Assembly: GCA_958295945.1 (NCBI GenBank)
Contig: OY282386.1
Coordinates: forward strand, 2,369,864-2,433,863
Reading direction: 5' to 3'
DNA: 64,000 nucleotides
Origin: Candidatus Poribacteria bacterium
GTDB lineage: Bacteria; Poribacteria; WGA-4E; WGA-3G
The position numbers and the translations under genes are program-made. The notes beneath the pieces were generated by a model. The model made no database searches, was not told where the DNA came from, and was given only the letters and a program-made list of their open reading frames with translations. Positions 25,237 to 31,576 of this stretch are shown here, piece by piece; within the stretch, counting starts at the first letter, position 1, and every line of letters begins with the position of its first letter.

Positions 25237-25695
25237 CTAGTCTGCGGCTTCAGCGAGTTCTAATAACACAGGTGATTCGACTCGGATAGCATCTTTTATG
25301 CACACCTCTTCACATAACTTGCAGCCAACGCAATCTTTCGGTTTCACCAATTCACAGATCCCGAAGAAACTTTCAGCATGTTCACCTGTCTCTGGGTCTT
25401 TCAGTTCCAGACATTCCCACGGACAAATATGAACGCAGAAGTCGCATCCAGAACAGAGTTCTTCATAGATAACAGCAATTGGTCGATGCGTTGGACGACG
25501 AATAAATTTACACACATCGCCATATTGGTCACGGATTGCTTCTACCGGACAGACCATCCCACATGCGGTACAGTCAATACAGACATCTGGGTCAATGATG
25601 TGAAGCATATTGCGGTCCCCAGTGATTGCATCAACGGGACAGTTGGTTAAACATGCCATACATCCAATACATTCTTCAGTAATAAAATACGCCAT
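25237..25695 (-). CDS. Ferredoxin-type protein with four [4Fe-4S] motifs
   Basis: This 152-residue protein has four CxxCxxCxxxC motifs: CIGCMACLTNCP, CIDCTACGMVCP, CSGCDFCVHICP and CVGCKLCEEVC. It therefore looks like a fused double two-cluster (8Fe-8S-type) ferredoxin. The start is the ATG at 25695, with AGGAGGT 9 nt upstream; the frame is open 12 codons further up but those lie across the ribosome site. It probably transfers electrons in the cytoplasm. Its position 73 nt after the last of three putative selenoprotein genes, on the same strand, suggests a shared redox role, which is inference. Confidence 0.92.
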   Translation of the reverse strand: MAYFITEECIGCMACLTNCPVDAITGDRNMLHIIDPDVCIDCTACGMVCPVEAIRDQYGDVCKFIRRPTHRPIAVIYEELCSGCDFCVHICPWECLELKDPETGEHAESFFGICELVKPKDCVGCKLCEEVCIKDAIRVESPVLLELAEAAD

Positions 25696-25768
25696 AGTTG
25701 CGGCACCTCCTGATATGTTGTATTTTAACATATCAGCGAAGAAATGTCAAATTGTGTATCAAAGACAT

Positions 25769-27325
25769 TCATTTGCCCTTCACAGAAATAATGGCATGGA
25801 ACGCATTGATGTTTCCTTTGCCACTGAACCACGTACCTGTTGCCCCCATTCGAAAGACTTTACCTTTATCAAAGTTATATTCTATTTTTCCCTTCTGTCC
25901 GGTAGGAATATCCCACACAGAAGTCAGTGCCTGTGTTGGCATCCCATGTTTTGGTAACTCTGTGTCATGATCAAAAAGATCAAACGATCCACCACATATT
26001 GCATTCCCCATACGGATGTCAATTGTAAGGATACCACCATTCTCATAGGATGTCGTATCAATGGTAATCACATTGTAGTCTTGGTTTCCGTATTTAGGTG
26101 CGCGAAGTATGTGCAGCACTTCATCAGTCGGTTTTTCGTCATTGATAACAACATTAGCACCTGTTAATAACGGATCTGATGTGCTTGGATTGAAACCAGG
26201 GAATCTCACATCTATTGAGTCTTTCAGAAACGAGAGGTAGCCCTCCTCCTCAGTAATGTTCTTTTCATAACAATCATCAAAGAACTCATTCAAAGGTAGT
26301 TTTCCCATTACGTCAAGTTCAGGTGAAATAACTAAGCAATCAACTGGTGAATGTTCTTGCCAACCCTCCATAATTGCTTTTGCTAAAGGTTGCATTCTAT
26401 TGAAGGGTTTGACTAATTCCTTCCGTCTATTAGACATATAAGCGCGTTTTCTGGGTGTGCGTTCTAATTCAACATTCGAAACCCAGACATTAATAAAATT
26501 GTCATTCAGAAATTCTATTACTTTGTCATCCGAGAGGACACCTGCCCTCAATCCTTTGCCACTCCCTCAGCATGATTCATCCTTTAATGGTCCGTCTGTT
26601 GAGATGATATGAATGAGTTTGACCTGATCTTCTGACAACTCTATTGCCTTAAATGGAGAAACCCAATTAATTTGCTCTGATTTGTAGAAACATAATGTTA
26701 GCGTGCGTTCTGCTGTTTCTTGTGTAATCTCCTCTTTAAAATCAGTGTCTTGTAGTATATTTTCTGTTCCTGTTGTCAGTTCTATTTGAGAACAGAAGCC
26801 AGCGTCAGCACTGTCCCAGTTTATATCCAAATTCACTGTTCCTTCAGGAACGTACATCTTAAAGAAAGCAATCTGTTGATTATGTCTATCAACTATCAGG
26901 TTTCCAGCAAACTGTGAAGGTGTTAACCAACCACCATCTAATTTGAACTCCGCGTGAATACGAAACGCAATATCAGCATATCTATCATTGTAAGCGCGTA
27001 GACATGTCCATAAACCACGAGAATCTCCTGAATCAATGTGCATGTCCAAATTTGGCTCTGGATTCAACTGCTGAAGTAATTCCAACACACCCGTTTCCTC
27101 TATTTTCCAACACTCACCAACCGAAACCGATTCTGATGGTAGAAATGAACGAAAGATTGATGTCTGATATTGCTTTTCAGGTTCAACAACTTGCAAGTTT
27201 GCCAATGCTTCCCATTCTATATGAAAATGGGATAGTGTATGCTCAATAGGTGTGATAACACCTTTGATAGATACATTTCCATGATCCTTGAGATTGAGAG
27301 TGATTCTGTTAGATGGTATATCCAC
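25769..27325 (-). CDS. Putative selenoprotein, thioredoxin-like C-terminal domain (copy 3; in-frame TGA at 26567-26569)
   Basis: This is read as one 518-residue protein with Sec253 encoded by TGA directly after Cys252 (DESC-U-GSGKGLRAGV). Without recoding it would split into two frames of 252 and 260 codons. The downstream one would have to start at a TTG without a ribosome site, in the middle of a conserved block. Residues 1-210 form a domain I do not recognise (IEWEALANL, EPEKQY, CLRAYND, FRIHAEF, SQFAG). Residues about 215-300 look thioredoxin-like: INWVSPFKAIEL, KLIHIISTDGPL, the Cys-Sec pair, then LSDDKVIEFLNDNFINVWV. A third region with VISPELDVMGKLPLNEF follows. The GTG start has GGAG 9 nt upstream. 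It is the last of three tandem paralogues. Confidence 0.82.
26534..26549 (-). promoter_or_regulatory. SECIS-like hairpin of selenoprotein copy 3
   Basis: Seventeen nt after the TGA the mRNA can form GAGGGC-AGGU-GUCCUC, a 6-bp stem with a 4-nt loop whose second base is G. The loop begins 24 nt after the TGA. This agrees with what is known of bacterial SECIS elements, which are short, lie in the coding region just downstream of UGA and have a G in the first two loop positions. Confidence 0.7.
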
Positions 27326-27328
27326 TTG

Positions 27329-28867
27329 TTAATTCTCCTCTACAGAAATTTTTGCTTGATAGGCGTTTATGCTGCCCTTTTCGTTAGATGCCCATCCCAT
27401 GCCAACCAGTTTGTATATTTGTCCTCGTTCAAATTGATGTGTCATTTGACCAATTTCGCATGGATCATACCAACCTATGTCGTGTGCACCATCAAACATG
27501 GTACCATCTGGTCATTTATTATCAGCATCAAAGGATAGTTTATGCTCAGCATCAAGTAGAAAGAACGAACCGGACGCTTTATCGTTACCCAATTCTATAT
27601 CTATAGTCAGTGTGCCTTTGCTCTTAAATGCAGTCGTATCAATAACAGCAACGGTATAATCCTGATGTCCAAATTCTGGTGTGCGAAATACGTCTAACAC
27701 TGTCCGTGATGGATTATCGGGTGTGAGAACAATATTTCCTAATCCTGGGAGTTTTCCTGATAGAGAATCTTGAAGAAACAACAAGTAATTTTCACTTTCA
27801 AGCGTGCCGTCTTCACGTCTGTTTTCTCCAAGGTATTCATTGATCGGGACATGTCCTATTGCTTCAAGTTCTGGAGATATAATCCAAGAGTCGACTGGAC
27901 CTCTACGCCATTTATGACCGATGATAGTCCAAGCTAAGGGGTACACTTGTTGAAATCCCAATGTATCACGCATTTTTCTCAACTCAATAGTACGTATCCA
28001 TGTGTTGATATAATTTTCATTTAGATAATTGATAATTCTTTCATTGGAGAGGACAACTGCCCTCAAGTTTTTTCCGCTGCCTCAGCACGCTTCATCATCA
28101 AGCGGTCCATCTATAGACAATGCATGGATCGGTTTCTGATGTGCCTGTGCTAATTCTACTGCGTCCTCAAAGGGAACCCAGTTTATTTGCTCTGATTTGT
28201 AGAATTGTTTTATTAGTTTCTTTTCTGCTTCTTTTTGTGTAATAGATAAAGCAAATTCTATATCTTTCTGAATATCTCGCGTGCCACCATATAGTTCAAT
28301 TTTTGGACATACACCGGAAGCTGTACTATAGTAATGGTTTGGATCGTCTTTATCTTTTTTCCAATTAACATCAAACCATTTTCCTTCAGGAACACGCTGT
28401 TGAAAAGAAACGACATCCTGTTTGTTCCTGTCAATAATAAGATCTCCTGCAAAATGAGAAGGCGTGAACCATCCATCTTCTAATTGAAATTCCGCATGAA
28501 TGCGAAACACAATATGAGCATGTTGATCATTATATGCACGTAGACATGCCCACACCCCAGCGGAATCTCCAATATTAATATGCATATCCAGATTTGGGTT
28601 GGGATTCAATTGTTTGAGAAGCTCCAACACCCCATTTTCTTCAATCTGCCAACAATCACCGATAGCAACAGGATCATTGGGAAGAAACGCTTGGAAAACC
28701 GTTGTGTTATATTCTTTCTCTGGTGCGTTTACACACATATTCGCCAACGCATCCCATTCTTCATGAAAGTTTGGACGCATGTTTTCAATCGGTGCGATGT
28801 AGCCTTTGACTGTAAATTTTTTATTACTACTCAGATTAAGCGTGATTTTGTTTTGTAAAGTGTTCAT
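27329..28867 (-). CDS. Putative selenoprotein, thioredoxin-like C-terminal domain (copy 2; in-frame TGA at 28082-28084, second TGA at 27512-27514)
   Basis: This is a paralogue of the genes on either side, 512 residues if both TGA codons are read through. The first TGA encodes the conserved Sec262 after Cys261 (DEAC-U-GSGKNLRAVV). The N-terminal domain keeps EWDALAN, EPEKEYNTTVF, CLRAYND, FRIHAEF, then INWVPFEDAVELAQAHQKP leads into the Cys-Sec loop. A second in-frame TGA at residue 452 follows LSFDADNK; beyond it the homology to the C-terminus of the other copies resumes in frame (QFERGQIYKL, GSINAYQAKISVEEN). That site has no Cys or Sec in the other copies, so it is more likely a nonsense mutation or sequencing error. 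The ATG at 28867 follows the stop of copy 1 by one base, with GAGGA upstream. Confidence 0.78.
28049..28064 (-). promoter_or_regulatory. SECIS-like hairpin of selenoprotein copy 2
   Basis: Seventeen nt after the conserved TGA the mRNA can form GAGGGC-AGUU-GUCCUC, the same stem as copy 3 with one loop change that keeps G at the second loop position. Confidence 0.7.
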
Positions 28868-28868
28868 C

Positions 28869-30446
28869 TCAATTGTCCTCAACAAAAATCCTTGCCTTAA
28901 AGGCATTTGTGTTGCCTTTCTCACTTCTATAGTTACACCCTGTTGCACCCAACTTAAAAAACTGTCCTTGTTCAAAATGATACGTAAGTTGTCCGGTTTC
29001 ATTAGGTTCAAGCCACGTCCGTGCAAGTACCATGTCTTTCGTAACTCGTTCAGTTGTAGGTAGATCGTCGTCGCCATCAACTAAATAGAAATAGCCATCT
29101 GCATCGGCTCTACCAGTCTCAATATCAATAGTAAGCGTGCCACCATTTTCAAACGCTCTCGTATCAATTACGACTACGGTGTAATCAGCAAAACCAACTA
29201 CTGGTGACCGGAAAACATCCATGACCTCCTGAGCAGACACCTCACTGTACAGGATTATATTCCCCAACCCAGGCTGTTTTCCATCTAAACTATCCTTAAA
29301 AAATGTTAGGTAATACTCTTCTCTTAAGTGTTTATTAAGTTTAATATCGTCGTGAACTTCACTAATGGGTTGTCTACCCATCAATTTAAATTCCGGAGAG
29401 ATAACGAAGCAATCTACCGATGAGCCTTTTTTTGATCCTGTTTTCCATCCCTTGATAATCGCTTGTGCCAACGGATTGCTTGTGTCATAGGTTTTACCCT
29501 CGTGCTCACGTCTTTTAGCAATCGGTTCTCGTAAACTAATAATACGCCCTAAATCGGCATTGCCTACCCAGATATTGATAAAATTATTGTTTAAAAACTC
29601 AATGATATGCTCATTTGCCAGGACACCTGCCCTGAAGTGTTTCCCACTCCCTCAGCAAGACTCGTCGAAGAGCGGTCCATCTATTGAGATCGCATGGATC
29701 GGTTTCTGTTGCGCGGGTGCCATTTGCAGTGCTTCTTCCAGTGGTACCCAGTTAATTTGCTGCGATTTATAGAAGGAGCGTATCAATTTTTGTTCCACTT
29801 CTTCTTGTGTAATAGATTCTGTGAATTCAATATTTTGCACAACATCTTCTATTCCTGTCTGAAGTTCCATATTTGGGCAGAAACCTACATCCGTAATGTG
29901 TCCCTCCTCGTTTGGATCAATTTTCCATTTAGCACCAAAGTTTAGAGTGCCTTTAGGAAGGGACATCTGAAAATAGGCAACCGATCTTTTGATTCTATCA
30001 ATAACAAGATGTCCCGTAAACTGTGATGGCGTGAACCAACCGTCCTTTAGGTCAAATTGTGCATGGATGCGGAACACAATGTCCGCGAATTCATCGTTGT
30101 AAGCACGTAGGCATGCCCACAGTCCTTGAGATTCGGTTTTACGGTACTGCAAATCCGCACGCATACTCAGCGTTGGATTCGGATGAAATTGCTTCAGCAA
30201 CTCCAGAGCACCCGCATGCTCAATCTCCCAGGGCACACCGATAGAGACGGTTTCCTTAGGGAGGAAACCACAGAAAATTGAAATGGGATACTGTTTTTCT
30301 GGCTCAGCAACGCGCAGGTTTGCTAATGCATCCCATTCAACATGGAAGTTATAGGAAGTATACTCAATCGGAGCGATGAAACCTGTGATAGGGACTTTTT
30401 CATCACCGTCAAGACTAATCGTGATTTTTTCTCGTAAAGGACTCAT
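28869..30446 (-). CDS. Putative selenoprotein, thioredoxin-like C-terminal domain (copy 1; in-frame TGA at 29652-29654)
   Basis: This is the first gene of the tandem triplet, 525 residues with Sec265 after Cys264 (DESC-U-GSGKHFRAGV). The frame is open on both sides of the TGA. Downstream, the residues GVLANEHIIEFLNNNFINIWV match the same segment of the other copies although no start codon with a ribosome site lies near the TGA. N-terminal blocks VEWDALANL, EPEKQYPISIF, CLRAYND, FRIHAQF and SQFTG match too. The ATG at 30446 has GGAGAATCT directly before it. No signal peptide is seen, so it is probably cytoplasmic. I infer a redox enzyme using a vicinal Cys-Sec pair; the substrate is unknown. 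Confidence 0.82.
29619..29634 (-). promoter_or_regulatory. SECIS-like hairpin of selenoprotein copy 1 with compensatory pair
   Basis: The stem is CAGGGC-AGGU-GUCCUG. Compared with the other two copies the outer pair has changed from G-C to C-G on both sides, keeping the stem although the change alters an amino acid (Leu to Phe) on one side. Distance from the TGA and loop G are the same as in the other copies. Confidence 0.75.
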
Positions 30447-30628: not shown

Positions 30629-30889
30629 CTAAAGTTCTCTGTTCCATGCATCCCTTTCTGACTTGAGATAAGCATTGATATCTTCAACACTACTTCCCCA
30701 AGTACCTTTCATAGTCCCTCGCATTTTCTGAATCAAGTCTTTTTTCTCTTCTTTAGACAGTACAGTAGTGGCAGATGGGATTACTTTGACTTCAAGCTCA
30801 AGCTCTTGTCCATCAAGAAGATTGAGTGTGTCCAACGGTTCAATTACACCATTCTTGTAGGTAGCTCTAATTTTATTTGGTTGTGCCAT
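30629..30889 (-). CDS. DUF104-family antitoxin-like protein
   Basis: This is an 86-residue protein. The opening KIRATYKNGVIEPLDTLNL followed by DGQELELEV is the typical DUF104 (AF2212-like) signature, an AbrB-like small fold often found with PIN-domain toxins. A C-terminal tail (KGTWGSSVEDINAYLKSERD) resembles the end of VapB-type antitoxins. No PIN toxin is encoded beside it: the 182 bp on one side and 96 bp on the other are empty. It is therefore an orphan or acts on a distant partner. Confidence 0.72.
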   Translation of the reverse strand: MAQPNKIRATYKNGVIEPLDTLNLLDGQELELEVKVIPSATTVLSKEEKKDLIQKMRGTMKGTWGSSVEDINAYLKSERDAWNREL

Positions 30890-30985: not shown

Positions 30986-31576
30986 CTATTGTTGACCTAA
31001 GTTCTCAAAAGCAGTGATATCAGCTTCATATTGTAATGTCCACCCAATTTCATCGAGCCCGTTTAGCAGACAGTACTTCTCAAAATCACCGATCTCAAAC
31101 GTGTGTGTAGTGCCATCAGGACAGATAACCGATTGTTCCTCAAGATCGACCATTAACCGATACCCTTGAGTTTCTTGCGCTTCTTGCCTAAGTGATGCGA
31201 TAACGTCAGCAGGTAAGGCTATAGGCAGTATACCGTTCTTATAACAATTATTGCGGAAGATGTCTGCAAATGATGGTGCAAGAATTGCTTTGAAGCCATA
31301 TTGCTGCAATGCCCACGGGGCATGCTCACGGGAACTACCGCAGCCGAAGTTTGCACCAGCAATTAGAATACTTGCGTCTGCATAGCGTGGGTGGTTGAGT
31401 ACGAATTCGGGATTCGCATCACCATTTTCAAGATAACGCCAATCAAAAAATAAAAATTCACCGAAACCAGTTCTTTCAATTCTTTTAAGGAATTGTTTTG
31501 GGATGATCTGGTCGGTGTCTACATTAATCCGGTCAAGTGGGACGACAAGTCCAACGTGTTCTTTGAATGCTTCCAT
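30986..31576 (-). CDS. leuD: 3-isopropylmalate dehydratase small subunit
   Basis: LeuD with LeuC isomerises isopropylmalate in leucine synthesis. The 196-residue protein has [46 protein letters not shown] and [18 protein letters not shown], all diagnostic. A GGGAAAACAG stretch precedes the ATG. leuC is not in the window, and the gene lies at the edge of a mobile-element-rich island, so the operon may continue elsewhere or have been split. Confidence 0.96.

Follow-up and report, generated by a model that had tools for sequence, protein, structure and literature searches.

Tandem genes of a Poribacterium that probably encode bacterial homologs of selenoprotein N with a vicinal Cys-Sec pair

Within a 64,000-nucleotide stretch of a Candidatus Poribacteria genome (contig OY282386.1; termed the window), three head-to-tail, nearly abutting genes on the minus strand (25769–30446) likely encode Poribacterial homologs of the animal selenoprotein N (SELENON/SEPN1), in which UGA would be read as selenocysteine (Sec) and which would act as thioredoxin-fold disulfide reductases with Cys252 as the resolving cysteine.

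Gene array and predicted fold

Copy 1 (25769–27325, minus strand) starts with GTG and comprises 518 amino acids with TGA translated as Sec; its frame contains ...INWVSPFKAIELSEDQVKLIHIISTDGPLKDESC-U-GSGKGLRAGVLSDDKVIEFLNDNFINVW. It combines an N-terminal domain (residues 1–200; 26726–27325) partly common to SELENON (FRIHAEF...P.QF.G...N.D), a thioredoxin-like Sec domain (residues 214–374; 26204–26686) delineated by its structural match to DsbH, and a C-terminal β jelly roll (residues 384–516; 25778–26176) with a PliG/PPC-like fold. The TGA codon of Sec253 (26567–26569), assigned by frame conservation, is directly preceded by the TGC codon of Cys252 (26570–26572), and a bacterial SECIS (bSECIS) hairpin with the apical loop AGGU lies at 26534–26549, with 23 nt from UGA to loop. 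Copy 2 (27329–28867), recognized by its homology to copies 1 and 3, has its Sec codon at 28082–28084 within EACUGSGK and its bSECIS hairpin at 28049–28064; the corresponding elements of copy 3 (28869–30446) are found at 29652–29654, within ESCUGSGK, and at 29619–29634, all on the minus strand. The ATG of copy 2 (28867) lies one base past the stop of copy 3 (28869), and the stop of copy 2 at 27329 is followed by the start of copy 1 at 27325. Copy 2 shares 52% protein identity with copy 3 and 48% with copy 1. Each copy carries one TGA within D-E-[SA]-C-U-G-S-G-K, and the consensus given in the original prediction is indeed that of the three tandem genes, with C-U-G-S-G-K around the TGA. The genome, a single contig of 5,337,261 bp, holds exactly these three family copies. 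None of the three proteins yielded a significant match in Pfam and NCBIfam.

Copy 2 shows a second in-frame TGA (27512–27514, minus strand) late in its C-terminal jelly roll. This position is CGT (Arg) in both relatives having that stretch (L047, L141), no second SECIS was demonstrated for it, and either a truncation or an error in the sequence is the probable cause.

Cys stood in for Sec in the structure predictions. AlphaFold2 with 60 family members resulted in a mean pLDDT of 88.5, and the core (residues 1–378) with 47 diverse members reached a pLDDT of 91.6 and a pTM of 0.88. The computed Sec domain is thioredoxin-like in these models, as originally proposed: residues 214–374 match DsbH (2ju5; VIA Z 12.8, 126 aligned residues, RMSD 3.4), ERp19 (1sen; Z 11.6, 115 aligned, RMSD 2.3), AGR3 (3ph9; Z 11.4, 116 aligned, RMSD 2.4), 7tkv (Z 11.3, 122 aligned, RMSD 3.0) and E. 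coli thioredoxin (2trx; Z 9.0, 105 aligned, RMSD 2.7). DSSP analysis of the predicted core indicated a strand (237–243), a loop, C252, U253 and a helix (254–261), so that the structural check suggested at the outset places Cys252-Sec253 where the first active-site helix of the Cys-for-Sec model begins. Profile alignment to the CxxC proteins L151 (WCGYCK) and L152 (WCQECH) positions Sec over the first Cys and Gly256 over the second, whereas Cys252 falls over the Trp of WCxxC and Lys257 over the post-CxxC Lys in L151 and His in L152. The expectations that Sec replaces the first active Cys and that the second CxxC Cys is absent thus both hold, with Gly standing for the latter and the additional Cys taking the Trp position. 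The possibility that a second CxxC Cys is hidden elsewhere in the loop was rejected, as none is present.

The C-terminal residues 384–516 match PliG (4dzg; Z 12.3, 113 aligned, RMSD 2.8) and also resemble collagenase PPC and collagen-binding domains. Searching the PDB by sequence gave no match for copy 3, and the family profile gave one weak cohesin match (E 0.4).

Proposed chemistry of the Cys-Sec pair

Because the Cys-Sec pair is kept and is placed at the thioredoxin nucleophile site, a protein-disulfide reductase is the best reading of this family; taken alone, such an activity with a vicinal Cys-Sec intermediate, which we infer from the computed motif geometry, is favored by a modest degree. 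Sec253, in place of the first CxxC Cys, would attack a disulfide of a client protein, Cys252 would resolve the mixed selenenylsulfide to a vicinal Cys-Sec bridge, and an electron donor would then reduce this bridge. The N-terminal domain, as the putative SELENON-specific part, may hold or position the client, and the C-terminal jelly roll, of which a member has none, one or two, may determine binding or location. A set of paralogs, some of them exported and perhaps for different clients, would have arisen by tandem duplication.

A vicinal Cys-Sec redox pair is also present in the GCUG motif of mammalian thioredoxin reductase, where it is located C-terminally on a flexible tail, whereas the Poribacterial pair is predicted at the N-terminus of the thioredoxin helix. 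A passage of PMC12839072 likens the SCUG motif of SELENON to this GCUG motif. A Sec attack that is resolved by the neighboring Cys is consistent with the trapping of SELENON clients, since in SELENON mutants with this Cys changed to Ser the client stays attached to the Sec position, with C427S/U428C as client trap and C427S/U428S as control (numbering of another isoform; PMC7474598).

Alternatively, the same family might perform another chemistry, in which the vicinal Cys-Sec pair reduces hydroperoxides or binds soft metals, e.g. mercury. A Cys directly before Sec is shared with the bacterial SaoL, SaoC, HgcA, MbdU, KCU-star and Csac_0668 families, of which SaoL, HgcA and MbdU handle metals or organometals (entries in PMC13188914), and the strong variation in family size between genomes resembles that of detoxification genes. 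These are, however, other named families, none of whose NCBIfam models matched; disulfide exchange is favored by a thioredoxin fold that has Sec in the attacking place and by the SELENON trapping data in PMC7474598, and no metal gene recurs among the neighbors examined. We therefore regard this other chemistry as unlikely, though deserving consideration, and retain disulfide reduction as the preferred reading.

Relationship to SELENON, distribution and gene neighborhood

Animal selenoprotein N was chosen for comparison because it resembles the family in the Sec motif and in the FRIHAEF, P.QF.G and N.D blocks upstream of it. The query was a reconstructed stretch of human SELENON rather than a database sequence, its numbering anchored by published residues; with Sec set at 462 and without adjustment, Arg291, Gly315, Cys461, Gly463, Arg466 and Arg469 agree with the published variants and the SCUG motif, c.943G>A being codon 315 (passages of PMC8967691, PMC12839072 and PMC3541580). 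Family profiles matched this reconstructed stretch with E-values of 2.6e-45 and 2e-40 (space of one million) in two separate parts, the N-terminal domain with 62–66 bits and the Sec domain with 97 bits. No match was reported in 500 shuffles of the comparison, and all 192 members tested matched the reconstructed stretch at E<1e-3. From this computed similarity the Poribacterial family is very probably homologous to SELENON, and its vicinal Cys-Sec pair would therefore correspond to the SCUG center of SELENON; that such a pair is without precedent in a thioredoxin-like loop is thus not supported, the arrangement being that of animal selenoprotein N. The best match was exhibited by a subgroup reading TWGVFDDESCUASGK (33–37% over 223 amino acids for the six best rows), several members of which carry a hydrophobic head, and the deepest subgroup reads [VL]WG[AP]LDDESCUA[ND]GK.

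In common with SELENON, the family has the SCUG-type pair in a thioredoxin-like domain, the shared upstream domain, and two basic positions after Sec (+4, Arg/Lys; +7, Arg). Among the 47 diverse members, whose alignment, like that of 60 rows, was largely chosen through the CU pattern, Arg122, His124, Gly141, Cys252, Sec253, Lys257 and Arg260 are invariant and Asn165 nearly so, corresponding to Arg291, His293, Gly315, Cys461, Sec462, Arg466, Arg469 and Asn340 of SELENON, respectively. The positions of His293, Asn340 and Trp453 in SELENON are presumed. The variants W453, G315S and N340I were not found together in the open-licence literature. The SELENON disease sites Gly463, Arg466 and Arg469 fall on G/A, K/R and the invariant Arg (+7, 193/193), the first two being partly kept as similar residues, with mostly Lys at +4 and Ala at +1 in 22 of 193. 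Rooted at its midpoint, the family tree joins the human row to the W-G subgroups (100/99). Since this row is the sole eukaryotic one and its branch is long (1.72), no direction of transfer follows from the tree.

Several properties set the Poribacterial family apart from SELENON: a SECIS of bacterial type that lies within the coding region and not in the 3'UTR, many tandem paralogs that are not ER-bound, and a C-terminal jelly roll added in most forms. The EF-hand of SELENON was not found among the Pfam matches at E≤1 for the three window proteins and 47 core members, and calcium control is therefore probably absent. Nor did the bacterial proteins resemble a type II ER membrane protein, a hydrophobic N-terminal head occurring in 52 of 179 members whose 5' end is complete, and neither a head nor a membrane anchor being evident in the window copies. 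An obvious export signal is missing from most members, so that their setting differs from the ER lumen.

Could the likeness be convergent, with a DUF255/Thioredox_DsbH-type protein having independently gained an SCUG-like center? The original prediction had seen in the segment the order of a DUF255/thioredoxin_7-like domain, to which a distant tie stands, without any match at gathering score: PF03190 (DUF255/Thioredox_DsbH) is matched by five of the 47 members, at E 0.008 for the best of them (below the gathering score), and by none of the three window proteins at E≤1, and the fold matches DsbH (2ju5) and 7tkv. The order INWV...A...KPI and the frequent Lys after the active site are shared with such proteins, but CxxC is replaced by C-U-x-x-G and the Pfam matches are far from significant. 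Convergence of the active site fails to explain why the SELENON match also spans the non-thioredoxin N-terminal domain, which renders this explanation very improbable in comparison with homology to SELENON.

A protein search blind to the motif detected the family in 63 of 97 related genomes with up to 20 members per genome, its size differing strongly from genome to genome, and the 74 family loci of a named scan all belong to Candidatus or uncultured Poribacteria. Within the phylum, the Sec-domain profile detected members in 64 of 84 genomes: in all 58 of the taxonomic family of our genome, in 2/2 and 4/9 genomes of two other families of the order, in 0/3 of a fourth family, and in 0/12 genomes of the phylum outside the order. 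The 302 genomes outside the phylum yielded just two weak thioredoxin matches (G332, G379), which were rejected as relatives, being ordinary CxxC proteins; viral contigs and plasmids contained no relatives. Among members the C-terminal jelly roll is absent, single or double, and long members with two jelly rolls in tandem (e.g. L032, L030, L031) account for 25 of the 189 collected through the CU pattern.

A four-cluster ferredoxin gene (25237–25731) lies about 37 nt from copy 1 in the same direction and encodes a genuine multi-cluster protein, which could suggest a ferredoxin-dependent reductase whose Cys-Sec pair receives its electrons from this protein. The gene matches the window's own locus alone among 150 loci, many of which have short flanks; a conserved ferredoxin partner was accordingly rejected, and the donor role originally put forward becomes highly doubtful. 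A conserved operon partner was likewise rejected on the basis of 74 loci with antisense frames dropped. The recurrent neighbors in these loci, named by our own reading except leuD, are WD40-like (15), leuD (13), polysaccharide-deacetylase-like (13) and TolB-like (12) genes, with no conserved redox partner evident among them. WD40-like and TolB-like genes often share the strand of a family member at a distance of about 14 nt, some with signal-peptide-like starts (e.g. L085 4844–5998, L063 3929–5017). Upstream of the tandem array the window contains leuD (30986–31576, minus strand), as do 13 of the 74 named loci, which marks a conserved chromosomal site of the array. A small, presumably antitoxin-like gene (30629–30889, minus strand) with homologs in six other family loci separates leuD from the array.

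Decoding of the UGA codon and implications

The UGA of the family is almost certainly a Sec codon, as computed from frame, codon usage and hairpin; SelB and tRNA-Sec would read it, guided by the hairpin directly downstream. Among the matches listed in the motif-blind protein search, nearly all cross exactly one TGA. Since the lists of 189 and 202 members were gathered by the CU pattern, and include one chance frame of 74 amino acids in L064, C-U conservation is taken only from a pattern with both motif positions free: C-U, in the [SAG]-C-U-[GA] form of selenoprotein N, occurs in 177 of 178 family contexts and C-S in one, four further pattern matches (GTTEAR) having been left out as antisense chance matches. 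At one locus (L065 2646–4238, plus strand) CSESGK without TGA stands instead of CUGSGK, probably in a decaying paralog that lost Sec. A clean Cys-for-Sec version was not seen among the family members examined.

The codons +7 to +11 after the UGA are nearly frozen in their synonymous choice. All 193 contexts encode Arg(+7) by AGG/AGA, a choice made for 26% of the other Arg codons in 181 family genes; Ala(+8) is GCA in 175/175, Gly at +9 is GGT in 128/128, Val at +9 is GTT in 61/61, and Leu within this stretch is CTC in 185/193. In contrast, the invariant Gly(+3) uses four codons. The frozen codons form a hairpin, 23 nt from UGA to its loop, which reads AGGU in 123 and AGUU in 57 of 185. Standard pairs amount to 97.8%, whereas none of 500 shuffles exceeded 96.6% in a control that ignores relatedness, and 179 of 190 distinct sequences form a perfect hairpin in one of two registers, the remaining 11 lacking one pair. 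In ten sequences all seven pairs form in a register displaced by two, including four of the five deep-branch members, where the loop is GGUC. Published bSECIS criteria comprise a distance of 16–37 nt after the UGA, a G early in the apical loop and an MFE ≤ −7.5 (section of PMC13188914); the family shows 23 nt, AGGU or AGUU in 180 of 185 loops, and an MFE ≤ −7.5 for 175 of 190 hairpins vs 18 of 1204 control windows. Rfam SECIS models gave no matches within the window at gathering thresholds.

The genome encodes the Sec machinery, with tRNA-Sec (78.1 bits) adjoining selB (362.1), selA (611.8) and selD (361). Its selD (G000:C1:1975016–1975942, plus strand; L154) has an in-frame TGA, and SelD is probably itself a selenoprotein. 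A selB match above the cut-off is absent from five family-carrying MAGs of 73–83% completeness (G004, G010, G048, G053, G056), and a strong tRNA-Sec from some, e.g. G017, G038 and G052. That UGA is a stop and each copy an ORF pair or a decayed gene, as standard ORF calling suggests by splitting each copy at the TGA, is hardly credible and was rejected, as the protein is conserved on both sides of the UGA in scores of genomes, the frozen codons form a SECIS and the Sec machinery is complete.

Table 1 of a 2026 catalog of 119 prokaryotic selenoprotein families contains no family with such a motif and architecture (PMC13188914), and in NCBIfam no match was near significance. In the open-licence literature selenocysteine and Poribacteria co-occur, but neither a paper joining selenoprotein and Poribacteria nor the motif letters were found. 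New is thus a bacterial multi-copy SELENON branch with a bacterial SECIS, an added jelly roll and no EF-hand found. We take the Aq. in the name Aq.SelN to stand for Amphimedon queenslandica. SelN was described as animal-specific in 2007 (survey passage, PMC2375036) and as also present in a few algae in 2020 (survey passage, PMC7539508); the sponge Amphimedon has one (Aq.SelN, listed in PMC3473315), and Poribacteria are dominant marine-sponge symbionts (as stated in PMC3909097). The SRE of SEPN1 is the functionally characterized one according to a passage of Mariotti et al. We tentatively consider that animal SELENON may be shared with the window's order of Poribacteria through sponge-symbiont gene transfer and that the SEPN1 SRE may be a remnant of a bacterial SECIS, a possibility with the odds against it. 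The SRE idea is directly testable, as the bSECIS of the bacterial SEPN1 homolog occupies the corresponding position.

A large bacterial branch changes the evolutionary picture of SELENON. Loss of SELENON leads to congenital myopathy, and its chemistry is poorly known. Pure, active SEPN1 is called difficult to obtain in a passage of PMC7474598; a bacterial relative such as the window copies, without an evident membrane anchor, could be produced with Sec by a laboratory strain and crystallized.
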